46,652 nucleotides of DNA from a virus. The translations under genes and the position numbers were made by a program. The stretch is taken from positions 1 through 46,652 of IMG/VR virus record IMGVR_UViG_3300033182_000594, one strand, 5' to 3'. Shown here in pieces: positions 2,610 through 46,489 of the stretch (position 1 is the stretch's first letter; each line of letters opens with the position of its first letter). Under the pieces are notes generated by a model, which was not told the DNA's origin, did not search any database, and saw nothing but the letters and a program-made list of their open reading frames with translations.

Positions 2610-3343
2610 TAGATTTCACCGAATGGATTTGACTCGCTCCAGTCAACAAAGTTGAGCGTCTGAGTCTGAGTTGTATAGTATTCGTTGTTCGCTTGATTGT
2701 CAGCGTCTTCAATACGGTAACCATCGTTGATGATAAACGAACCGTCTTCAAACTTCAAACCACCGCCATCTTCAAGCAGCAGTTGATAGAAGTTCATATC
2801 GCCAGAGTATGCAGTTTCAATCGAATCAATAACATCAATGCCAGTATTGAGCTGCTCATGGCTGTATTCGAACAGTTCACAACGCAGATCATAAACCTGC
2901 AAAGAACCCATCTGATAGAAGATGGATTCGTGTTCTACAAACTTGACTTCAAAAATCTTGCCATTAAGAGGCAGATAGATAAGATCGCCTTCAGCTGGAC
3001 GACCAATACCTTTCGTCGTTTCGCCATCTTCAATTTCTTCAGAGAAACGGCGACGAGCAACTGTTAATGTAACTGCGTCACGAATTTCCAAACCAAACTT
3101 AGAAAGAAAATCGCCATCGCCCTCAAACCCATCAACTGATTTAATATACATTTCAATTGGGTATGCATCATCAAAGGTTGATAATGTATCTTCGCTAAAC
3201 AATAAATCTTCATTTACAATTGTTCTTGGCATGTAGAATATTTCCATGCCATAGATTTTGATGGATTCAATAATAAGATCCTCGATGAGTCGTTGCTCCA
3301 TCGAGTTCTCAAAATTGTTAAAGTAAAAGTTCGTTGTAGGCAT
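2609..3343 (-). CDS. gp14: Neck protein (gp14-like)
   Basis: gp14 forms part of the head-tail connector (neck) with gp13. The protein has 244 aa (T4: 256). The segment [18 protein letters not shown] followed by DLLFSED matches T4 [49 protein letters not shown] matches T4 [43 protein letters not shown] with [10 protein letters not shown] matches T4 [20 protein letters not shown] with FYQLGQ. It sits between gp13 (6-bp gap) and gp15 (1-bp overlap). The C-terminus SNPFGEI resembles the T4 SSPFDND end. Confidence 0.94.
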   Translation of the reverse strand: [244 protein letters not shown]

Positions 3344-3349
3344 GAAGAA

Positions 3350-4093
3350 TTATCCAATCATATCGTAAGTCGGAAGTGAGTATGTATTGATCATCTCTTC
3401 TTCCAGTCGCTTAATCTCCTCATCTGCCTCTTGATAGATTTGTTCGCCATTAAAGGTAACGCCACCTGGCAGCTGCATGCCAGAGAACTTCTTTAGGTTT
3501 GTTCCCCACTGACGCTTAATTAATTGCGTGGCGTACTTACGAAGCCAACGATCACCCCAGACGTCTGCATACGTGTCAGGATCAGCCGTTCTATAACATT
3601 CGATAATAATATACTCACCTGCAGTAACCTTCGCCTCCCAGTCCATGTCAATGTACAGGCGATCCATATGGCGATTGAAGCGGAACATCTGTTTGCCAAC
3701 AAACAGTTCTTGCATCAAAGCAATGCGTTCCATCGACATAGCGTAGTGAGCAAACTGCCCATGCGCCCAGTCATAGATTTCGTTCAGCGTAATCTGATAG
3801 CGAAGGTTGAATAGATTGTTGGTGTTAAGTCCAGCACCAATTGGAAACAAATTAACAACACCAATAATAGATTCTGGCAGCGTGATGTACTTGTTGGTAA
3901 TATCCGCTGATGTTACTTGATACTTGTAATAGTCGTGATAAGAACCATCGTAATGAAAGTCACGATAGTATTCAAGTGCATCAGTAATACGGTCGTCAAC
4001 TTGATCGTCGTCAACATTGATTTCGATAACTGGTGCACCAAGTTCACGAAGGCAATACTTCTTAAACTCAGTTCTTGTTGTTGGAGCTGCCAT
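3350..4093 (-). CDS. gp13: Neck protein (gp13-like)
   Basis: gp13 is the head-proximal neck protein. It has 247 aa, shorter than T4 gp13 (309 aa). The N-terminus FKKYCLRELGAPVIEINV, followed by DDRITDALEYYRDFHYDG, matches T4 LKDVILRRLGAPIINVEL with YDCIQRALELYGEYHFDG. It is the first gene of the gp13-14-15-16-17 packaging and neck block. A TATAAATA late-promoter octamer lies 33 bp before its ATG, and a terminator-type hairpin is nested between promoter and ATG. The ATG directly follows the U-tract of that hairpin, and the only SD-like element (GGGA) is in the hairpin arm. Confidence 0.94.
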   Translation of the reverse strand: MAAPTTRTEFKKYCLRELGAPVIEINVDDDQVDDRITDALEYYRDFHYDGSYHDYYKYQVTSADITNKYITLPESIIGVVNLFPIGAGLNTNNLFNLRYQITLNEIYDWAHGQFAHYAMSMERIALMQELFVGKQMFRFNRHMDRLYIDMDWEAKVTAGEYIIIECYRTADPDTYADVWGDRWLRKYATQLIKRQWGTNLKKFSGMQLPGGVTFNGEQIYQEADEEIKRLEEEMINTYSLPTYDMIG

Positions 4094-4098
4094 AAAAA

Positions 4099-4126
4099 AG
4101 TCCCAGAGAGTTTATCTACTGGGACT
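4099..4126 (-). terminator. Rho-independent terminator ahead of gp13
   Basis: Arms 4099-4106 and 4119-4126 form a perfect 8-bp stem (AGTCCCAG / CTGGGACT) with a 12-nt loop. On the minus strand the stem is followed at once by six U residues (4099-4094) and then the gp13 ATG at 4093. It would stop minus-strand transcripts arriving from the lysis-like and fibre genes. On the plus strand there is no U-tract. Confidence 0.72.
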
Positions 4127-4133
4127 ATTTATA
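4126..4133 (-). promoter_or_regulatory. T4-type late promoter for gp13-gp17
   Basis: Exact TATAAATA on the minus strand, the T4 late consensus. With T4 spacing, transcription would start at about 4120, an A, giving a leader of about 27 nt before gp13. The octamer's last base is the first base of the terminator stem, so the predicted start lies inside the hairpin. Confidence 0.75.
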
Positions 4134-4152
4134 TCATTTGAAAAGTTGTTAC

Positions 4153-4614
4153 TTAACTCTTGCCGAGATAGAATGCGCCTGCAGCTAGGATCGACGTCTT
4201 CAACCATTCAAAATGTACGAGTGCATTTTCTAGTCTGACGAATTCTGTTACAGTCTTTTGTGTGTCAACAATGCCAAAAAGATAAGATCCACCAACTTCC
4301 TGAGTGATCGGAACAATAATATCAAGACCAGTAAGTCCGCCGACCATTGCCCAAGCACCCAATGCGACCATTGAGAGAACGAAGATACGACGAGTCAGTT
4401 TAGCAAACGGATCGTTGCCTACTCTATTCGCCGCTGCGTCTGCCGACTTGGATGCGGATTCTCTCTCCTGATTGGCGATGTCCGCTTTCTGCTGACGATC
4501 CGCCATCATCATTTCCATCTGCTTCTGCTTGTTCTTTTGAGCGTTGTCCATAAATTTGAACAAACCACCCATAAGTGCGCCGCCACCCATTGTTATTAGT
4601 TCGACTGGAATCAT
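4153..4614 (-). CDS. Putative holin, three hydrophobic segments
   Basis: A 153-aa membrane protein of holin type. Residues 5-21 are a Gly-rich hydrophobic stretch (LITMGGGALMGGLF). Residues 25-68 are a polar, Lys/Gln/Ala-rich helix. Residues 77-97 (IFVLSMVALGAWAMVGGLTGL) and about 136-151 (WLKTSILAAGAFYLG, ending GKS) are transmembrane segments. The pattern of an Arg pair before a TM with VAL..W, and a final TM ending in Gly-(Lys/Arg)-Ser, recalls the 3TM holins of gene-transfer agents and marine phages; that family link is from memory, not a search. The RBS AAAGAGGTG is well placed. Its first 191 bp overlap the preceding lipoprotein gene, and a CTAAATA box lies 40 bp upstream. Pairing with a spanin-like gene supports a lysis role, but no endolysin is in the window. 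Confidence 0.55.
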   Translation of the reverse strand: MIPVELITMGGGALMGGLFKFMDNAQKNKQKQMEMMMADRQQKADIANQERESASKSADAAANRVGNDPFAKLTRRIFVLSMVALGAWAMVGGLTGLDIIVPITQEVGGSYLFGIVDTQKTVTEFVRLENALVHFEWLKTSILAAGAFYLGKS

Positions 4615-16515: not shown

Positions 16516-19500
16516 TTATTTATTCTTTTTCAATTCATCAATCTCAGCTTTTAATTCTCTAATCGATTCAATTAACAAAGCATGCAGAGCATCATACTTA
16601 ACAGTTTTGTATGCCTCTCCAGTGTTAAGATCATTGACTTCTTTAACAGCTTGAGGAAGAACCTTTTCTACATCCTGAGCGATAACGCCAGCTGAGCGAG
16701 TACCATCTTTCTTCCAAGTAAATTCAACGCCATTGAGCTGAAGAACCTTATCCAACGCATTTTCAACTGTTTTAATGTTATCTTTCAACTTACGGTCAGA
16801 AGATGTTGTAGTTGAGTATGCAATCACGTCTCCGTCGCAGTGGAGATCACCATCATTCTCGAGACGCATATCTAGAACACCGTCGAGATACCAGTCATGA
16901 GTTGTTGTGTTAACAACATAATAATCGTTTGTATCACGACCAATATAGAACACGTCGCCACGAAGGTCAGATTCAACGCTAATTGTATTAGCAGCAACAT
17001 CAATACCAGCACCAGCACCAACATTCAATGTTACAGTGCCAGAAGAAGTAACAGTACCACCGCCAGACAAACCATTACCAGCAGTAACAGTCATGCTTGT
17101 TACAGTACCAGTTGTGGTAGAATAACCAGCATCATTATTGAAGCCAGAAATATTGATATTGCCTTTGGTCAGTTTTCTTTGTACTCCTGATGTGTCAGTA
17201 ACAATAAAGTAATCACCATCACCATTAGTCGTAGATGTAGTCAATTCGCTAAGGTCAAGAGAAATAGTTACTGCTGCACTCTCAGAACCAGAGCCAGAAA
17301 CATCAATACCAGCACTGTCAGTAATTGTAGCAACATAGTTTCCTGAAGTATCAGTACCCAGAACAACATCGTTGTTATATGTTGTTGCAGCATTAATTGT
17401 AATATTGCCAGAACCATCAAAGTTGGCAGAACCAGAACCAGTTACATCACCAGTTAGATTCACGCCAATTGAACGAGCAGATGCTAATGTAGCAGCGGAA
17501 CCACTTGCATTACCAGTAAGATTGCCGACAAAATTATTAGCAGCAAGATTTCTGCCGTCTGTCGACCAACGCTTTGCAGATTCATCCCAAATAAATTGAT
17601 AATTTGCTTTTGTTCCACGCTCAATTACAATACCACCATTTTCTGATGGAGTAGAACCGCTGTAGTTGCTGTTAAGAACAATAAGATTGTCAGCAATATT
17701 AACAGTTTCTGAATTGACTGTTGTAGTTGTGCCTTGTACAATAAGGTTGCCAGAAACTACAATATTTTCGCCAACATTCAACTGACCTGTAACAGTCACA
17801 TCATCTGGTAAACCGACTGTTACTGTTCCGTTGCTGCGAGATACATTGACTTCATTAGAAGTACCATTAATTGCTAGAACTGCACCAGTGGTTGCGTCTT
17901 TAAGGGCAACGTGTCCAGAAGAAACTGTGAAGTCTCCAGAATCAAAAGAAGCAACGCCACGACCAGTACCAGAAGTTGTAGTTGCTGGATCAATATCAGT
18001 TTTAAACGAACCAGCAGCAGTAGCAACAGTGATAGCGTTATTTGATTGAGTATATGTTACATTAGTAACACCAGCAACTGTAGAAGTTGTTGCTGAGGTA
18101 ATTTGACCCTTGCTGTTAACAGTAATAACAGGAACTGCAGTGGCAGAGCCATAAGAAGTAGCAGTTACACCTGTGTTAATCAACTTCGCACTTGCAATAC
18201 CAGCATCCTTCAGAGTAACAAGACCTGAAGAAGTCACAAAGTTATTTGAGTTGAATCGAGCAATACCTTTGTTTGTAGTTGTAGCATCTTCACCAAGAAT
18301 AGAAATTGAATCAGAGTTTACATAGACATCAATACCTTCGCCTTCATAAATGCTTACTGTATCACCAAGATCAACAAGTGTAGTATTACCAGATGCGCCA
18401 TCACGGAATGTCAACTTGGAGTTAGCAAGCATTGCATTGGTAATTGTACCATTGGTGATTGTATTATTAGCATGCAATTTGCCGTTGCTGCCAACAATTA
18501 CAACAGAATCATTTTTCCAAGTACCATCAGCAGTAATATTGCCATCAACATTTAAATTGTTCGTAATTTGAGTGTTGCCACTAACAACAAGATTCTTAGT
18601 GATTGACAGTCTATTTGTAACTGTCATTTCATCACCAACTGTTACATTGTTAGCATAAACATTTGACCACTTGCTGCCAGAAGAACCAAGATTATGGCGT
18701 TCGCCTGCTACTGGGATCACATCGGTGTTAATTGAGCCATTAACATTGATGTTATCAGCAGAGGCATCACCAAGATTTACTGTGCCATTAAGATTTGATG
18801 TTCCAGTAACGGTCAGCGTTGTAAATGAACCTGTTGGCGCAGAAATAGCGGAGCCACCAGAAATATTGACCGCACCAACAACTGTTAGATTGCCGTTGAT
18901 TGTTGCATCGTTATCAACACTTACTGTATTGGCATACAGAGTATTAGCATAAACGCCATTCCAGCGATCGCCAGTAGAACCGAGTGTATAATGACCAGTG
19001 CCATCATCAACAACTGGAATTAGGTTGGAATCAATCTGTGAATTAATGGTAAGCGTATCAGCAGCAGAACTACCAATATTAACATCGTTATTCAAATTTG
19101 AGCCTGATGTTACAGTCAAGGTATCAGAAGCAGCGTCGCCCAAGTTGACATTGCCATTAATATTCATTGTACCATTAAAGTTGGTTATTCCATTAAAGGA
19201 AGCAACACCTGTTACTGCGAGATTAGCGAACTTACCCTTAACAGTAATTGTGTCAGAGTCAGCATCACCCAATGTCATGTTGCCATTAAAGGTTGCTGAG
19301 CTGTTAAAGGTTGTTGCGCCATTAACATTAAGAGTTTGAGAAACGCCAACGGTCTTAAATACGCCTGCACCACCATTCGTCGTGTCAGCCCATGCAGTAC
19401 TCCACTTGCGAGTGGACGAACCAAGCGAACCAACGGCATCAGTTACAGGGATAAGCGAAGCAGCGACGCCCTGAGAAGCTCCTGTAGCGACACTTAGGAC

Positions 19501-31200: not shown

Positions 31201-31517
31201 AGAAGTTTATATGATGCTAAAGAACCACGTGACAAGTTAAATTCTTTAATGTACTTCGCCATAATTTTTTTATCGGCGAGTACTTCTTCTGGCACAGAAG
31301 GCAATAGTGTATTAAAGAAATATGTAATATAATCGTCAGTAGTTGTACTGATATCACGATAAGAACTTAGATTACGAACCTCATGAGTCAGTTTGCCTTC
31401 CTGCTCCATGTATTCATAATATGCCTGCATAAAGAGAAGGAATCCTTCTCCATCTTCTTTATAAAAATCAGGAAACTGGTTCTTTACCAGTTTAGAAATT
31501 TTTTCTAGGACTGCCAT
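28266..31517 (-). CDS. gp7: Baseplate wedge protein (gp7-like), rearranged architecture
   Basis: 1083 aa (T4 gp7: 1032). Residues about 1-125 (FPDFYKEDGEGFLLFMQAYY, EYMEQEGKLTHEVRNL, FNLSRGSLASYKLLFRTIYN) match a region that lies in the last third of T4 gp7 (DSNFEAFCEAYIQYLSDGYG, KGIEASYKLF-type KFLFKVLYNEEVEIE). The T4 N-terminal two thirds are missing and the protein instead extends with beta-rich G-x-G-Y modules (FSIEDGGSGYTTSTSNGGTT). LVHPAGQALFGKF near residue 830 matches T4 FVHPVGFGFIAI. The gp6-gp7-gp8 order and stop/start overlaps on both sides support the call. Confidence 0.82.
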   Translation of the reverse strand: MAVLEKISKLVKNQFPDFYKEDGEGFLLFMQAYYEYMEQEGKLTHEVRNLSSYRDISTTTDDYITYFFNTLLPSVPEEVLADKKIMAKYIKEFNLSRGSLASYKLLFRTIYNESIELFYPSESILKVSDGDWRIDQYLVCSYQPATYNFIGKTIKGTSSQAEALVEDVVRRVVRGRDLMQILVSNVKGTFNHLEPIRLLSDTTSTGHTPIIEAGINNVTITSPGGEYRNGDVVRLISPDVGEFAKVVVIGTVDLGGTLTFSIEDGGSGYTTSTSNGGTTIELIGGDGNEPASFVIGQTGINDTFAISINTDLIQSNTVFGSMAPVITDADGAPRAMNTFANVIISATDYGFRESGTEVLGNRRYSDHANAVLVVANTSDPGITVGASLFGVTSGANATVTTIRRAYNSTNIVVGVDTYKNFTGTEKVNISTASGTTVGTVTSFTGNTAGWIPLSVAVISGQELSVGDEIRGRNSGAIGIVTHVGAANTGAYTAPSTVVRDVITYRVAANTSANLTSQFTAGPIKSFSHYEPIALVTANTTVGNVVDWSVTSNGIIENVYTKLEDAFNYLDTTFGTIRKLSSVVGGSGYSRAPTVRVRSNDVAALGIGESWITMTSTDSGLNLIDTSDRLHQTSAGAYGDIKQIFNKELLPDGVTYQVVARVWQDFGNRDPDSNQYALGAATLRRMAGSWIPGYETDTRTLDGTVNVTITAIDDKGVLGKNAIINAGVGANGTITAIRTLDSGFSYKQGEEVILEATNRPLATGGTGTINLSGVANAEGYYATTRSHVSTARGYIQDGEYYQEFSYEIISPISLQRYRDYALKLVHPAGQALFGKFRSQSNVYVDVTANTSFTKTLISNGTISITKTAANGTVAIENGNNYVVGTSTNFLGEFGNKAVAGSVEVTAANATVIGTGTSFTNYAVGDLLQVGDNDYVIKTIANNTVMSVRPDVNMKGASSNSNYTVNGKSSFIVEWDPGDGIPNRFVEVGFSANSATNVILTDNWIFGTITGANIYFANSHTIVGSSTTLTSEFVNGDVILIETAHKQYDKLVLNKVNSATSANLVSKWVRADLSGANAYYISGTF

Positions 31518-33280
31518 TAGGTAGACTCGCCAACAATAGTAATTGCCGCATCTCCAGAATTCATTAATAATATCTGTTCACGAACAGGAATTACATCTAA
31601 ACGATCTGGAGTAATTGTTACACGAATTTCAATACCAGAATATGCAGTTGGTGCAAAATTATTTACTTCGATTACGCCAGTGGTGTAGTTTACTGTACCA
31701 GCATTAGAAACAACATTTACTCTTTGTCTTGAAGCATTAAAACGATAGATGTTAATGTTACCTAAACCGTCATCATCAAAGTAGCAAGAAAAACCGTTGT
31801 ATGTAAATTCAGTAGAAGCAACTGATTCTCTACGAATAGGGTTATTGTATTCAAGTTCAACTTTTTCAGCAGCATTTACATTTGGAACAAAACGCTTTTG
31901 AAGATTAATAACCGCATCGTTGTTAAGAATGCTGCCAGTTGTAATATTATCCAAAGCACGAACGAAACGAGAATAGCGCAAACGATTACCAAATCTTTCA
32001 AGATTAGTTGAAGCAAAAGAAGCAATTGTATTACGAATGGTTTGTTCAATCGCCGATTCCGTTACACGTGTTCTAGTTTTATCATAGTATGTTGTAATAC
32101 TAGGAATAAGATAAGTGTAATTTGGATCAATAATAATTGGATCAATACCAAGAGGTGTTCTGTCAAGAATAGAAGCACGAACTTGCGCTTTGCGGTTTTG
32201 AGTAGCAAACTCTTCGCCGAAAGGTTTAACAGCAATGTACACCTTACCATAGACTGGAGGACTAGCATTTTCCCCACCAAACGCCACCACAGACTGCAGG
32301 TCTGCGTTTTCAGCAAGAAGGATGCGCTGGTAGTCTTCATCAATAACAGCTCGGTTCTGTGTCTGATAATTCCTTGGAGCATTAAATTTAATTGAAGAAA
32401 TTGTTTCAGCAGGACGACCGCCTCGTGCTGTACTATTGGTTGTTAATGTTGCTTGTGTATAACTAACACCAACATTCAACGTGTCAATAGAAAACGAAGA
32501 TGCGCCATTAGTAGCATCGCCGTTACAAACAAGATAATCTACAATAATAATATTGCCGTTTTTGAGTGCCTTACCCAAAGAACCTGAACCAAAAATAATC
32601 TCATGCTTTTCATCAGCAACTTCTTCTAAAAAGAATACTGGACTTGTAGAGAATACTTGATTTACATTAGTTGCACGTGTAAATTCAGTCACGGTTGTAT
32701 CAGAAGATGATTCTTGTACTGTTACGGCAATACTTGAAGCGTCAACATTTTTATTTGGAATGATGTAACGCTGAGGATTATTGCTATCAACTACAAATCT
32801 ATGAGTAAGAGGAGTGCCTTCTTTAATCTCGATTGATGTTTGAAATCCGTTGTTATCAATAACTTTATATGCTTGTGGTGTAACATAAGTATATTGTACA
32901 TCATCAATAATCGTTGTAAATTTAGAATTCTTAGGAATTGTAAACTGCGAAGTACCAGCAGCAACACCAGTAAATGTAACCTGAACATTCGCAGTTGCAC
33001 CGATAGCAGATACAGGAACATATCCCAGTTCTTTAGCACGAGATACAACCGAATCACGCTGCTGCGCAGTATCTAAGAACATCTCATTAGCAAGCATGTT
33101 TAGATAGTATGCATTGTAGTGAGTATTATAAGCAAGCACATCAAGAAGAACTGACATAGCAGAACCATCAAAATCATAATCCTGAAACTGACTTTGTGTG
33201 CTTAAATATGATTTAAGGTTTGTTTTGATTTGGTCAAAATCAAGTTCAGTAACTCTGAGATATGTGTTTGCCGTTGCCAT
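31517..33280 (-). CDS. gp6: Baseplate wedge protein gp6-like
   Basis: 587 aa (T4: 660). The N-terminus (LRVTELDFDQIKTNLKSYLS, FDGSAMSVLLDVLAYNTHYN, AYYLNMLANEMFLDTAQQRD, SVVSRAKELGYVPVSA) is the strongly conserved gp6/J-type wedge signature shared by contractile tails. It dimerises around the hub to form the inner baseplate ring. A further conserved block, YGKVYIAVKPFGEEFATQNR, is at about 347-366. Its start overlaps the gp25 stop by one base (TAATG), and its stop overlaps the gp7-like start the same way, so the wedge genes gp25-gp6-gp7-gp8 are coupled. Confidence 0.95.
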   Translation of the reverse strand: MATANTYLRVTELDFDQIKTNLKSYLSTQSQFQDYDFDGSAMSVLLDVLAYNTHYNAYYLNMLANEMFLDTAQQRDSVVSRAKELGYVPVSAIGATANVQVTFTGVAAGTSQFTIPKNSKFTTIIDDVQYTYVTPQAYKVIDNNGFQTSIEIKEGTPLTHRFVVDSNNPQRYIIPNKNVDASSIAVTVQESSSDTTVTEFTRATNVNQVFSTSPVFFLEEVADEKHEIIFGSGSLGKALKNGNIIIVDYLVCNGDATNGASSFSIDTLNVGVSYTQATLTTNSTARGGRPAETISSIKFNAPRNYQTQNRAVIDEDYQRILLAENADLQSVVAFGGENASPPVYGKVYIAVKPFGEEFATQNRKAQVRASILDRTPLGIDPIIIDPNYTYLIPSITTYYDKTRTRVTESAIEQTIRNTIASFASTNLERFGNRLRYSRFVRALDNITTGSILNNDAVINLQKRFVPNVNAAEKVELEYNNPIRRESVASTEFTYNGFSCYFDDDGLGNINIYRFNASRQRVNVVSNAGTVNYTTGVIEVNNFAPTAYSGIEIRVTITPDRLDVIPVREQILLMNSGDAAITIVGEST

Positions 33281-33675
33281 TACCTTACTCGTTCTAAGAT
33301 TACATCCAGTACAACTGGAGTTGTGTCATTTCTAACTCTAAACGCAACTGAAACAGTGAGTCCGTTTAGGTCTGGTCTATCTTCAACCAAGACACGCATT
33401 AAGTTTGCTCTTGGTTCAAAATTTTCAATCGTTTCTTTGATTGTATTCTCCATCTGCTGCTTGAGCGATGGAGTAAAGTGTTCAAACAAATATGAGCGAA
33501 TGTTACAACCAATGTTCGGCTGAAACGGACGCTCATAAAAATCTGTAAGAATTAGATTGCGAATAGATTGTTTGACAGCATCTCTGTCAATTTTGCGTGT
33601 CAGTTTTCTTGTTACTGGATGTGCAGTAAACGCAAGATTAATGTCGCTAAAAATTTCTGTTTTTGCTATCGCCAT
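33280..33675 (-). CDS. gp25: Baseplate wedge / sheath initiator gp25-like
   Basis: 131 aa (T4: 132). gp25 links the first sheath ring to the wedge. The conserved EPR triplet is at residues 87-89 (ENFEPRANLMRV), and SIRNLILTDFYERPFQPNIG at 37-56 is the typical gp25 sequence. The start at 33675 is preceded by AATAAATAGTAC, with no clear SD; translation may be coupled to the gene upstream, whose stop is 13 bp away, or start on a leaderless late message. Confidence 0.95.
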   Translation of the reverse strand: MAIAKTEIFSDINLAFTAHPVTRKLTRKIDRDAVKQSIRNLILTDFYERPFQPNIGCNIRSYLFEHFTPSLKQQMENTIKETIENFEPRANLMRVLVEDRPDLNGLTVSVAFRVRNDTTPVVLDVILERVR

Positions 33676-33688
33676 GTACTATTTATTC

Positions 33689-33895
33689 TTACACTTTTGG
33701 TTTTAATTGTTGGACTGCCTTTTCAAGATCGTTTTTGCTATTCTGAATTTCTGCTCTACGCTCTTTAGCCAACTTTGCCATTTCAGAAAGTGCTTTACGA
33801 GCTCTTGTACCAGCAGATCTATTACCTTGCATAAACTTTTCATTCTCTGCAATGTATGTTTCCATTAAATTTACGATGCTATCATGATTTTCCAT
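33689..33895 (-). CDS. Small basic protein, histone H1-like (Hc1-type)
   Basis: 68 aa. The core MQGNRSAGTRARKALSEMAK, then LAKERRAEIQNSKN, matches in pattern the N-terminal part of bacterial Hc1 histone-like proteins (GNKAAG.RARKAL..I.KLAKE.RKEIQ..K). It is helical, with Lys/Arg at regular intervals. It lies directly before gp25 in the baseplate operon. It might bind DNA, for example host or packaged DNA, or be a helical virion protein that merely resembles Hc1. RBS AAGGAG is followed by a T6 run and the ATG. Confidence 0.62.
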   Translation of the reverse strand: MENHDSIVNLMETYIAENEKFMQGNRSAGTRARKALSEMAKLAKERRAEIQNSKNDLEKAVQQLKPKV

Positions 33896-33905
33896 AAAAA
33901 ACTCC

Positions 33906-33934
33906 TTGACTTATCAATTCAAAATTAGTATAAT
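33906..33934 (+). promoter_or_regulatory. Near-perfect sigma-70 promoter, antisense to baseplate genes
   Basis: TTGACT at 33906-33911, a 17-bp spacer, and TATAAT at 33929-33934 on the plus strand: 11 of 12 consensus bases with optimal spacing. It lies in a 71-bp gap. The predicted start near 33941 gives RNA antisense to the 182-aa gene and the PAAR gene. No plus-strand gene follows for several kb. Confidence 0.5.
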
Positions 33935-33960
33935 CAAATTGTCCCCTTTAAGGTTAAGAT

Positions 33961-33968
33961 TATTTATT
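33961..33968 (-). promoter_or_regulatory. AATAAATA late-promoter-like box before Hc1-like gene
   Basis: AATAAATA on the minus strand, overlapping the stop codon of the 182-aa gene. The predicted start near 33955 gives a 60-nt leader for the Hc1-like gene and gp25. It faces the plus-strand sigma-70 promoter. Confidence 0.45.
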
Positions 33969-34515
33969 AGGCAGCTGCGGTTTGTTGAAACCAAGGTGTA
34001 ATCGACTTTCTATCAACTGGAGCACTAATACTTGGCAATGCGCTTGGTACTGATACTTCAGGGATTTTAGTTGGTGCGCCTGATCTTTTAGGCAACACTC
34101 GGTAAGTTTTTATACCATCAACTTCTTCATAAACAACATCATCTAATAATTGACACAAGTCATTAATACCAAAACTTGGAATTCTACTGCAGTCTAGTTG
34201 TAATGTATCAACTACATTTTGAAAACCAGACCAATCACCAAAATCTTCTACCAATGCATTATACTTGGCGCATGCTTCATGAACGCTTCTAGAGTTTACA
34301 ATATCTAGCAAACGCAAGAATAACCTTGCTCCTTGTTCAATCCATGACTTAACATATGCAATCAGTTGCCTCAGCGTATTTATCACCTGTTGAATTACGG
34401 CAAACAATGCTGCGATTGCTGCTAATCCTTTAAAGAATAATGATAATGCGCCTGAAATAATTTTCTTTAGGGCTGCAATAATTTCCTTTGGTATGTCACA
34501 TACTGATGGTAACAT
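33967..34515 (-). CDS. Unknown baseplate-region protein with hydrophobic N-terminal half
   Basis: 182 aa; not recognised. Residues about 8-55 are strongly hydrophobic and helical (EIIAALKKIISGALSLFFKG, LAAIAALFAVIQQVINTLRQ) and could form one or two membrane or amphipathic helices; residues 56-130 are helical and mixed; the last 45 are Pro/Ser-rich (KIPEVSVPSALPSISAPV). Cys6, Cys82, Cys109 and Cys121 are present. It is one base away from the PAAR gene, so it may be part of the spike or hub complex, perhaps a protein ejected or inserted during infection. That is inference from position only. Confidence 0.7.
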   Translation of the reverse strand: MLPSVCDIPKEIIAALKKIISGALSLFFKGLAAIAALFAVIQQVINTLRQLIAYVKSWIEQGARLFLRLLDIVNSRSVHEACAKYNALVEDFGDWSGFQNVVDTLQLDCSRIPSFGINDLCQLLDDVVYEEVDGIKTYRVLPKRSGAPTKIPEVSVPSALPSISAPVDRKSITPWFQQTAAA

Positions 34516-34516
34516 A

Positions 34517-34819
34517 TTATCCTCCTCCTACGCCTACATTATGCGAACCACATGCAATAAATGTACACGATGTTAAATCTGACCACATATGAGCCATTCC
34601 TCTCATATTAACACGAACAGTAAGTGAGCCAAATGTAACAGGTGCTGAGTGAATTGCACAAAACTTGCCAGCAGGAACCAAGTGTGGTGTATTTAAATCG
34701 CCTTGCCTCACAGCTCCTAACATATTAACACGCACGTTTGGTGAACACATTGCCATTGCGGATGGTCCACAATGTGGTACGCATGGATCGCCTATTCTTG
34801 CGGCTGGTAATCCTAACAT
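34517..34819 (-). CDS. gp5.4: PAAR-type spike tip protein (gp5.4-like)
   Basis: 100 aa. It starts MLGLPAARIGDPCVPHCGPS with the PAAR motif at residues 5-8. Candidate metal ligands are His16, His46, Cys54 and His57. The repeated VRVNMLGAV / VRVNMRGMA segments are the pseudo-threefold strands of the conical PAAR fold. Such proteins sharpen the tip of the gp5 spike and start membrane penetration. T4 gp5.4 is of similar size (97 aa). The gene overlaps the 78-aa gene upstream by 7 bp and lies near the gp5-like spike gene, as expected. Confidence 0.92.
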   Translation of the reverse strand: MLGLPAARIGDPCVPHCGPSAMAMCSPNVRVNMLGAVRQGDLNTPHLVPAGKFCAIHSAPVTFGSLTVRVNMRGMAHMWSDLTSCTFIACGSHNVGVGGG

Positions 34820-35049
34820 CTGTTAGACCTCCGTAATATTTCTGGTTGAAGTTCTCGCATCAACTCAATCCATTCGTGATTATGACCATCAACTTCTGGT
34901 GGGTTTGGCATAAAAGACACCATGTGATCAAAAGATTCAGGAATATCATCAAACTTTTCGTATGATTCAAATTGCCCATCTTTGACAATAACAAACTTGC
35001 CAGTTATCTTTGATGTGTCAATAATCACTTCATCGTTATCATAGTCCAT
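34813..35049 (-). CDS. Small acidic protein, unknown function
   Basis: 78 aa, acidic (MDYDNDEVIIDTSKITGKFV). No family recognised. The central VKDGQFESYEKFDDIPESFD and MPNPPEVDGHNHEWIELMRE segments suggest a small folded domain with a helix at the C-terminus. The gene overlaps the 241-aa gene (TGATG) and the PAAR gene, so it belongs to the spike operon and may be an assembly factor or adaptor. Confidence 0.7.
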   Translation of the reverse strand: MDYDNDEVIIDTSKITGKFVIVKDGQFESYEKFDDIPESFDHMVSFMPNPPEVDGHNHEWIELMRELQPEILRRSNRC

Positions 35050-35774
35050 CAGTAAAAATAACTCCCATAAGTTGCTTCAAGAGAAGAATTTCCGAACACA
35101 TAATTGTTTGCTGTATATGCAACCAATGTTTTTCTGTGTTCTGCTATTCTTATAATATAGAATTCCCAGTCATTATATATATCGTGTGTTACTGAAAACG
35201 ATTCATTGGCTGTAGGATTACCTAAAAGATCGCCGACTCTAACATACACGTTATATGATTCAGTAACATATGTTGAGGTATCTCCATCAACATAAAACAA
35301 ATTTGTATTTGCTGGTAGATTACCAAACCCAACAACAGTTGTTGGTTCAGTTGTTATGTTAAAGGTTATTTCAGCATTTGCTTCCTTAACCAAGTCAAAT
35401 TCTTCAGGCAATGTTTCTCGAGAAACAAAATACCCATTAGCATAACTTTTATTCAAAGGAAGATATTTTAATGTATCTGTAAATCCATTCAGGTATCTTC
35501 CGCTAACAGTTGCAGTGTTTGCGCTATTTGCCGTTGCTATTTGTGGTTCTTCAGGTCGTGTAAAAGAACTTGGTTCAATACCGCACCATAAAATAGTTTC
35601 AATAGGAATACCATACTCATTAACATCTGGGTGCGCTGTTACTGATACTGTAAAAGTATTGCTCCCACTACCAACAAAACCTTTTCCTCTAGTAACATCA
35701 GCCCATTGAGTATTTGATGCTGCGCCACCATAAGATTCAGTTGATTTTGTTGGAGATAATGTAATATATGCCAT
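35049..35774 (-). CDS. Unknown beta-rich structural protein next to the spike gene
   Basis: 241 aa. Starts MAYITLSPTKSTESYGGAAS and is beta-rich throughout (FTVSVTAHPDVNEYGIPIET, FNITTEPTTVVGFGNLPANT). No recognised motif, signal peptide or membrane segment. Coupled by a 1-base overlap to the gp5-like gene and to the 78-aa gene. Probable virion or baseplate protein by position. Possible counterparts among T4 proteins of similar size could not be shown from the sequence. Confidence 0.72.
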   Translation of the reverse strand: MAYITLSPTKSTESYGGAASNTQWADVTRGKGFVGSGSNTFTVSVTAHPDVNEYGIPIETILWCGIEPSSFTRPEEPQIATANSANTATVSGRYLNGFTDTLKYLPLNKSYANGYFVSRETLPEEFDLVKEANAEITFNITTEPTTVVGFGNLPANTNLFYVDGDTSTYVTESYNVYVRVGDLLGNPTANESFSVTHDIYNDWEFYIIRIAEHRKTLVAYTANNYVFGNSSLEATYGSYFY

Positions 35775-37237
35775 TATAGTGGGTTCAATTCAATCATCGG
35801 AGCAATAGCAGTCATAATACCAGCAGAACTCATATTATACACGCCACCAGCAGCAGAGAATATACCACCACCAACTGCAGTTGTTTGAGCAGCACCAACC
35901 AAAACAGTTTGCGCACCAACAACATCAGTAATATGAGATGCGCCATAATTTTCTGTTTTAATACCAACAACAGTTTCAGTACTTGCACCACCAACCGTTT
36001 CAAACTTGTAAAGACCAGTTGTTTCTGATCTAAATCCAAGCGCAGTTGATTGAATGTAACCAAATGTGTCCATATCAATACCAATACCAGCAGTTGCTGC
36101 GATGCTTGTACCAGCAGTAATGCTAGTTGTAAGTCCTGAGTTGAATGAAGTGCCTAACAAACTGGTTGCACTATATGCTCCGCTTGTAATTAGTGAAGCA
36201 CCACCAATTCCTGTCGTTGTATTTTGCGCACCGAGCAATACATTAATAGTTTGATCGCCTCTCATTACAGTAAGATAATCATTTTCTGCGATACCGATAG
36301 ATCTTTCGTGACCAATTTCTTGGTTAAAACTGCCGCCAACTTTATTTTGCCAAGATTGTTGGAAGTCATAACCAACTTCACCTTGTACTTCTAAGAAATA
36401 GTCGCCTTTGATCAGTTCTCTTTTATTACCGTTGACTGTAACATTAAGATCACCTTCAACATACATGTTGACGCCATCCATATACAGTTCATAATTTTTA
36501 CCAATAACTTTTATTGTTCTTGTGCCATCTGCAATAATTTCTTCATATGTTCCAGATGGGTGATAACGGTGGTATCTTTCTTTTCCTTCAGTATCATCAA
36601 ACTCTTGAAGATGACCGTTCTCTGTTTCATACACATGATTGTGAGGGTATTCAGGAATAGAATCATTTGCTGCAGGCAATTCGGTCCATGGATTTGATTG
36701 ATAATAATTATCTACCTTTGGTCCAACTACATTATCATCAAGTCTTGGTGGTTTCGCAGTAGGAATTGAGCGTTCGTTACCATTAACATATCTGTTTGCA
36801 TTTTTATGTTGTCTAGCAATAGCAAGACTTGCGAGCGATTCACGAGCAGCTGGGTTAGTATCTGGAATTTTAGTCCATCTTGGATACTCGCCATATGGAT
36901 CATTAAATCCAAGACCAGTGTTTGACATATCTACTGGCACGCCATTAAGCGAACCAAGAACAATTGGTTCCTGCGCACGCTCGCCATCCATAAAGAAGCC
37001 AACAACCCAAGAACCTTCAACCAAACCTGTTGGTGAATGACCGATTCCTGATACTGAAGCAGACTGAATGTTATTTACAATAACAGCCCATGGTAATGCA
37101 TCAGTTGGAATTTGACCTTTATCTTCAGTATGCCAACCAAATGCACGCACTCGCACACGACCCATTTGTACTGGATCGTTTCTATCTTCAACGACTCCGA
37201 CAAACCAGACGAAGTCTTTTCCCATAAAATTACGCAT
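35774..37237 (-). CDS. gp5: Baseplate hub spike (gp5-like) without lysozyme domain
   Basis: 487 aa (T4: 575). Residues about 10-105 are the OB-fold (VWFVGVVEDRNDPVQMGRVR, then PTGLVEGSWVVGFFMDGERA and PIVLGSLNGVP). Residues about 105-205 are a Pro/Asn-rich linker. Residues about 210-487 form the triple beta-helix needle, with YPHNHVYETENGHLQEFDDT and later short G-x-x-x-x-T strand repeats. The T4 lysozyme domain (residues 174-342 there) is missing. The protein pierces the outer membrane upon contraction, tipped by the PAAR protein. The start overlaps the 55-aa gene by 8 bp. Confidence 0.9.
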   Translation of the reverse strand: MRNFMGKDFVWFVGVVEDRNDPVQMGRVRVRAFGWHTEDKGQIPTDALPWAVIVNNIQSASVSGIGHSPTGLVEGSWVVGFFMDGERAQEPIVLGSLNGVPVDMSNTGLGFNDPYGEYPRWTKIPDTNPAARESLASLAIARQHKNANRYVNGNERSIPTAKPPRLDDNVVGPKVDNYYQSNPWTELPAANDSIPEYPHNHVYETENGHLQEFDDTEGKERYHRYHPSGTYEEIIADGTRTIKVIGKNYELYMDGVNMYVEGDLNVTVNGNKRELIKGDYFLEVQGEVGYDFQQSWQNKVGGSFNQEIGHERSIGIAENDYLTVMRGDQTINVLLGAQNTTTGIGGASLITSGAYSATSLLGTSFNSGLTTSITAGTSIAATAGIGIDMDTFGYIQSTALGFRSETTGLYKFETVGGASTETVVGIKTENYGASHITDVVGAQTVLVGAAQTTAVGGGIFSAAGGVYNMSSAGIMTAIAPMIELNPL

Positions 37238-46460: not shown

Positions 46461-46489
46461 ATTATACTATGATCTAGCATAAATGTCAA
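46461..46489 (-). promoter_or_regulatory. Perfect sigma-70 promoter for gp32
   Basis: On the minus strand TTGACA (46484-46489), a 17-bp spacer, and TATAAT (46461-46466): 12 of 12 consensus bases with optimal spacing. The predicted start near 46454 gives a leader of about 56 nt. The -35 and spacer lie in the 3' end of the gp59-like gene. Confidence 0.85.

Follow-up and report, generated by a model that had tools for sequence, protein, structure and literature searches.

A conserved promoter directed against the baseplate operon of uncultured T4-like phages, a candidate source of an oriE-like replication primer

In the 46,652-nt viral sequence analysed here (the window), a sigma-70-type promoter points backwards into a baseplate operon. 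Its pattern of conservation indicates that it is probably a functional host-type promoter, maintained by selection in a group of uncultured aquatic T4-like phages. Since the promoter is conserved although no gene follows it, it probably gives an early non-coding RNA, and we tentatively favor an oriE-like replication primer as the most likely role of that transcript. No published report of this promoter was found in the literature, as far as its texts were available. The elements of the site and its neighbors are as follows.

31517 to 33280, minus strand: gp6-like baseplate wedge gene, 587 aa, named from synteny
33280 to 33675, minus strand: gp25, baseplate wedge (family match)
33689 to 33895, minus strand: hc1, encoding a 68-aa histone H1-like protein (PF07432, E 1.1e-13)
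33902 to 33907, minus strand: Shine-Dalgarno sequence of hc1, AAGGAG (plus strand CTCCTT), read directly and overlapping the -35 box
33906 to 33911, plus strand: -35 hexamer of the antisense promoter, TTGACT, read directly and kept as TTGAC(A/T) in relatives
33929 to 33934, plus strand: -10 box TATAAT of the antisense promoter, read directly and seen in relatives
33940 to 33942, plus strand: TGT start-site element (90% pairwise identity), whose G at 33941 is the predicted first RNA base
33946 to 33952, plus strand: CTTTAAG element in the predicted first transcribed bases, a motif in relatives
33968 to 33961, minus strand: late box of T4 type, AATAAATA, directed towards the promoter and overlapping the stop codon of the 182-aa gene
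33967 to 34515, minus strand: 182-aa gene (ORF), the first that the predicted antisense transcript would cross
34517 to 34819, minus strand: PAAR protein (PF05488)
35774 to 37237, minus strand: gp5, baseplate hub with an OB domain (family match)

A preliminary description of this DNA had placed TTGACT-N17-TATAAT in a gap of the operon, facing a minus-strand late box and followed by no plus-strand gene. Indeed, a scan of the window locates the promoter as an exact plus-strand match at 33906-33934, in the 71-bp gap (33896-33966) between the 182-aa gene and hc1, with the late box opposite. No plus-strand ORF of at least 60 aa starts between 33569 and 35514; the next begins at 35515, antisense inside a 241-aa gene. 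The hexamers are spaced within the 16-18 nt of sigma-70 promoters, and the start is conserved. Matches to TTGACT-N17-TATAAT with at most two mismatches number 12 in the window against 9 expected, the antisense site being the sole mismatch-free one, and the 10/12 match that had been noted inside a fiber gene is found at 17714-17742. Between 27000 and 46652, 61 promoter-like sites compare with 66 in shuffles, and only the gp32 promoter (12/12, minus strand, 46489-46461) outscores the antisense site. In the window alone, the site is not beyond chance; its conservation is. The perfect TTGACA-N17-TATAAT preceding gp32 (PF08804; minus strand, 46461-46489) lacks the TGT-N3-CTTTAAG that the antisense site carries. 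Across nine records, TTGACW-N16/17-TATAAT occurs ten times, once per record at the antisense site and once more at gp32 in the window; in a 102-kb record, the antisense site is the only such match.

Upstream of hc1, the gene order is the 182-aa gene, PAAR, a 78-aa gene, the 241-aa gene, and gp5. The name gp6-like reflects relatives in which the gene after gp25 is annotated as baseplate wedge or baseplate J. The phage collection yielded no near relative of the window DNA. The 182-aa gene has no family match and its protein no relative in the phage collection or in viral_contigs, so it could not serve as bait. With gp6 as bait, 72 loci were collected from viral_contigs, of which the 15 sharing 66-84% of gp6 were taken as close relatives. 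The antisense promoter is present in all 14 that reach the spot (L009 is cut off), some of them near-copies of one another, with 11 or 12 of 12 positions matching and a spacing of 16 or 17 nt. The conservation in related phages that had been proposed as a check is thus borne out among close relatives. At the 57 more distant gp6 loci, many of which have short upstream DNA, the promoter is absent from this spot.

A search by hc1 alignment, covering the best 80 of at least 576 rows together with the loci already collected, gave 97 loci with an Hc1 match. We scored a strict site where at least 11 of 12 positions match and the -35 box lies 7-12 nt before the hc1 start codon. Within this set, such a site occurs in 53 of the 97 loci and in 25 of the 48 that remain after dereplication by a simple similarity cut, related sequences not being independent. 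Among 200 shuffles the mean was 0.025 and the maximum 1, and reversed and complement controls gave 0 of 48. These counts, and the occurrence of the extended motif described below in only two genome_contigs, dispose of the chance origin that had been considered. In 17 sites with 17-nt spacers, mean pairwise identity is 0.94 for the hexamers, 0.35 for the spacers, and 0.90 for the TGT at the start. The hexamers were kept while the spacers diverged, indicating selection on the promoter and not on the leader sequence; the same pattern argues against the earlier idea of a relic of a lost gene.

The strict site is absent from about half of the dereplicated hc1 loci (among the best 80 of at least 576 and those already collected), including loci with almost no gap between hc1 and its upstream gene, and one lineage that has the late box only. 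A second hc1 clade (representatives L130, L134, L135, L140) has doubled antisense TTGAC boxes; in its 10/12 antisense match, 20-23 nt separate the -35 box from the start codon, and we left it out of the strict counts, along with L084, L103, and L138 (10/12 in the usual place). The hc1 gene accompanies gp25 in 93 of the 97 Hc1 loci from the same search (best 80 of at least 576, plus loci already collected). Hc1-like stretches in viral_contigs number at least 576, yet only six GenBank phage records match, and in three of these six, those examined, no hc1-gp25 antisense site was found.

On the 3' side of the -10 box, the conserved layout is 5 nt, TGT, 3 nt, CTTTAAG. The start at 33941 given in the preliminary description coincides with the G of this TGT, which supports its prediction. 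The exact pattern TTGACWN{16,17}TATAATN5TGTN3CTTTAAG occurs in 31 contigs of viral_contigs and in 2 among all genome_contigs, both titled Clostridia. Fifteen of the 31 have hc1 behind them, and two are cut contigs whose promoter sequence is as in hc1 loci. Eight lie in a gp55 setting, where the motif is antisense, with uvsW and a small gene on one side and gp55-gp47-gp46 on the other. We read five of the eight completely and assigned L167, L187, and L188 by their identical layout. (We identified gp55 as PHROG 234 in the genome G001; the name of its homologue beside the motif is based on similarity and synteny.) Three more, from one lineage (L164, L165, L177), are in sense orientation before uvsY, two are antisense before a cytidyltransferase gene, and one (L170) precedes small genes.

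The TGT is present in 25 of 29 consensus promoters at hc1, in 3 of 42 in uvsW-region loci, and in neither of two others, counted over 73 distinct exact-consensus promoters (L005-L155 and L191-L278, motif-selected loci left out). Being common at hc1 and rare elsewhere, the element does not mark early promoters in general. When two or fewer mismatches are allowed, it is present in 11 of 22 records, at most once in each. A position weight matrix, trained on the same hc1 sites, scores 31.8 at the antisense site of the 102-kb record, 22.3 at a site inside uvsW, and at most 14.8 elsewhere. Further, in 23 dereplicated segments the arms flanking the start pair better within a site than across sites (mean arm stem 3.26 versus 2.77 when permuted, P 0.001), as in an operator, though this dyad is not visible at many single sites. 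TGT-N3-CTTTAAG and the dyad set the promoter apart as a special class and may represent an operator or a sequence used in initiation.

In the 102-kb record, the site inside uvsW is antisense and next to uvsY. Its reference positions are:

L200 (uvsW at 3001-4455) and G001 at 91267, antisense: promoter-like site inside uvsW

Of the 19 loci L199-L217, all 18 other than L205 have this site with a score of at least 15, as do L218 and L221, and it is absent from that place in the other 59 of 80 loci. The codons TAT TAT, and in most cases GGT, persist there despite residue changes (for example, in L204). The case for a conserved antisense promoter here is suggestive, because amino-acid constraint could also explain the kept bases. 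Between uvsW and gp55, L163, L171, L185, and L175 carry back-to-back promoter-like sites, one in sense orientation towards gp55 and the other antisense with the TGT element.

We infer transcription, its early timing, the start at 33941, a long non-coding transcript, and a priming role from the sequences compared here. In the proposed mechanism, host polymerase would use the antisense promoter at once after infection, and a non-coding RNA starting at about 33941 would extend, against the direction of the operon, across the gene upstream of hc1 and on in the direction of gp5. This early transcript would prime leading-strand DNA synthesis, as at T4 oriE, and late transcription would later cross the region in the opposite direction. 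Among 22 loci, no terminator-like hairpin lies 0-300 nt after the start and five lie at 300-600 nt (loci without 600 nt were dropped), which disfavors a short terminated small RNA and points to a long transcript. Folding of the first 120 nt is no more favorable than that of shuffled sequences (z +1.5), offering no sign of a structured RNA, and Rfam returned nothing at E 1 or better for 33000-36000.

The closest known counterpart is in T4, whose record (NC_000866) marks oriE at 79355, pointing in the minus direction, and describes its primer RNA as complementary to the transcript of gene 5; the gene order there is 53-5-5.1-segC-5.3-5.4(PAAR)-6. The T4 mark lies inside the 3' part of gene 5, and so within the gene 5-6 interval only in a wide sense; scanning T4, we found an antisense TTGATG-N17-TATAAT (L190 3378-3350) on this origin mark (L190 3356). 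The window site similarly lies in the gene 5-6 interval, between gp5 and the gp6-like gene, and appears as a sigma-70-type promoter directed against late baseplate genes and towards gene 5. Compared with the T4 primer RNA, gp5 adjoins the start in L010, L012, L013, and L073 but lies 1.8 kb further on in the window. Unlike T4 oriE, the window site stands beside hc1-gp25-gp6 and not inside gene 5, and it has the TGT-N3-CTTTAAG that the T4 site lacks. T4 oriE reportedly also includes repEA and repEB, said to have been described by Vaiskunaite and co-workers in 1999. Near the window site there is no plus-strand ORF of at least 60 aa that could correspond to them, the listed relatives share no conserved antisense ORF (at least 45 aa, judged by eye), and, in place of T4-like iterons (12-nt direct repeats), 33400-34600 contains a single two-copy 11-nt repeat. 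Because T4 iterons and repE genes are absent, we do not file the site as a member of oriE; it may work like oriE without itself being called one.

Two further observations count for the primer reading: genes of recombination and replication lie near further copies of the start element (of the 31 exact matches, 8 in the gp55 setting and 3 before uvsY, and also the site inside uvsW in the 102-kb record), and gp5 is crossed directly in the four loci just named. T4 oriF, located at uvsY, is comparable in that the start element precedes uvsY in L164, L165, and L177 and is antisense near uvsW or gp55 in others. The available part of PMC3016281 describes R-loops and a MotA middle promoter at oriF, or ori(uvsY), and states that T4 origins have no common sequence motif; most of the phages compared here have a direction different from that at oriF. 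Several points count against a primer. The tight distance between promoter and hc1 start would fit hc1-related control too, and the motifs before the cytidyltransferase gene and the L170 small genes have no replication link. In addition to the missing iterons and repEA/repEB-like ORF, neither the window nor the 102-kb record shows a GC-skew turn at the antisense site, so that skew gives no origin evidence. The absence of the site from this spot in the 57 distant gp6 loci, many of which have short upstream DNA, and from part of the hc1 loci weighs the same way, as does the single theta origin predicted for cyanophage Syn9 (PMC2984593, in the part available). According to that same partial text, antisense RNA was first reported in T4-like phages with CfrI of cyanophage S-PM2, which is approximately 225 nt long and antisense to both psbA and a homing endonuclease gene. 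The RNA predicted here would likewise be antisense in a T4-like phage (S-PM2 is marine), but its locus, hc1-gp25-gp6, is not that of psbA and its neighbor as the available text gives it, and the two have no locus in common.

Antisense interference is a close rival, nearly as good, which we regard as possible rather than probable. Here, an early transcript or a promoter-bound polymerase would keep the late baseplate genes and hc1 from being transcribed too soon or by read-through, and Hc1 made too early would compact DNA. Its strength is that the site holds a fixed place relative to hc1 and opposes late transcription: the promoter is oriented against the late operon, and in strict loci its -35 box sits on the hc1 Shine-Dalgarno sequence. 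A late box, NATAAATA, lies within 160 bp in 16 of the 25 dereplicated promoter-bearing loci, as in the window, but is missing from the other 9, which weakens the idea that the promoter shields a facing late box. The gene crossed by the predicted transcript is not constant either: it is the 182-aa gene in the window, gp5 in L010 (where its identity was confirmed), L012, L013, and L073, and PAAR in L011 and L042; in L005 and L006 a gene of 690 aa takes this place, and in L016 and L025 one of 368 aa. Further, the predicted RNA does not cover the hc1 start, and T4-type late promoters require late factors anyway. Lacking both a constant target and a constant late box, interference is weakened. The antisense site inside uvsW lends it some support, since it would act on a helicase gene that is late in T4 (PMC3016281, in the part available). 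The preliminary description had proposed an RNA antisense to the 182-aa and PAAR genes that keeps late genes silent early in infection. The 182-aa gene is indeed the one crossed in the window, but the upstream gene changes between lineages, so this target is not the conserved part; early silencing survives as interference, with its late-box component diminished.

An improbable alternative is a general early promoter that drives plus-strand early genes inserted in some relatives and stands empty here. Genes do follow the motif in L170 and in L164, L165, and L177, and the Pelagibacter phages Mosig (L003 3758-4921) and HTVC008M (L004 4279-4796) have reverse-strand genes upstream of gp25, Mosig with tRNAs as well, in a region near the place of the antisense promoter. 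However, close relatives have no conserved plus-strand gene, the TGT is concentrated at hc1 and rare among uvsW-region promoters, and, if gp32 in the window is set aside, no record has more than one site. We consider it very improbable that chance, or a sense-strand effect in which GTCAAGG and ATTATA are kept for the hc1 mRNA (Shine-Dalgarno sequence, leader structure), explains the site: the leading TT of the -35 box does belong to the Shine-Dalgarno complement, but the 16-17-nt spacing is held across a diverged spacer with TGT at the start position, site-less hc1 loci use other Shine-Dalgarno forms, the motif recurs in other gene contexts, and the reversed and complement controls were empty.

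A broader form of the primer reading, which we regard as doubtful, is that backward promoters with TGT-N3-CTTTAAG, often with a dyad, mark origins both at the oriE place, with Hc1 beside it, and near uvsY. If this is true, origins in uncultured T4-like phages would be flagged by an element that most other consensus promoters there lack. Little is known of how replication starts in T4-like phages outside the coliphages, and a recognizable backward promoter at the oriE position, present in many uncultured phages, would make both the place of an origin and an early antisense RNA predictable from sequence. If the promoter is a silencing device instead, it would represent a conserved cis-antisense switch acting on a late operon.
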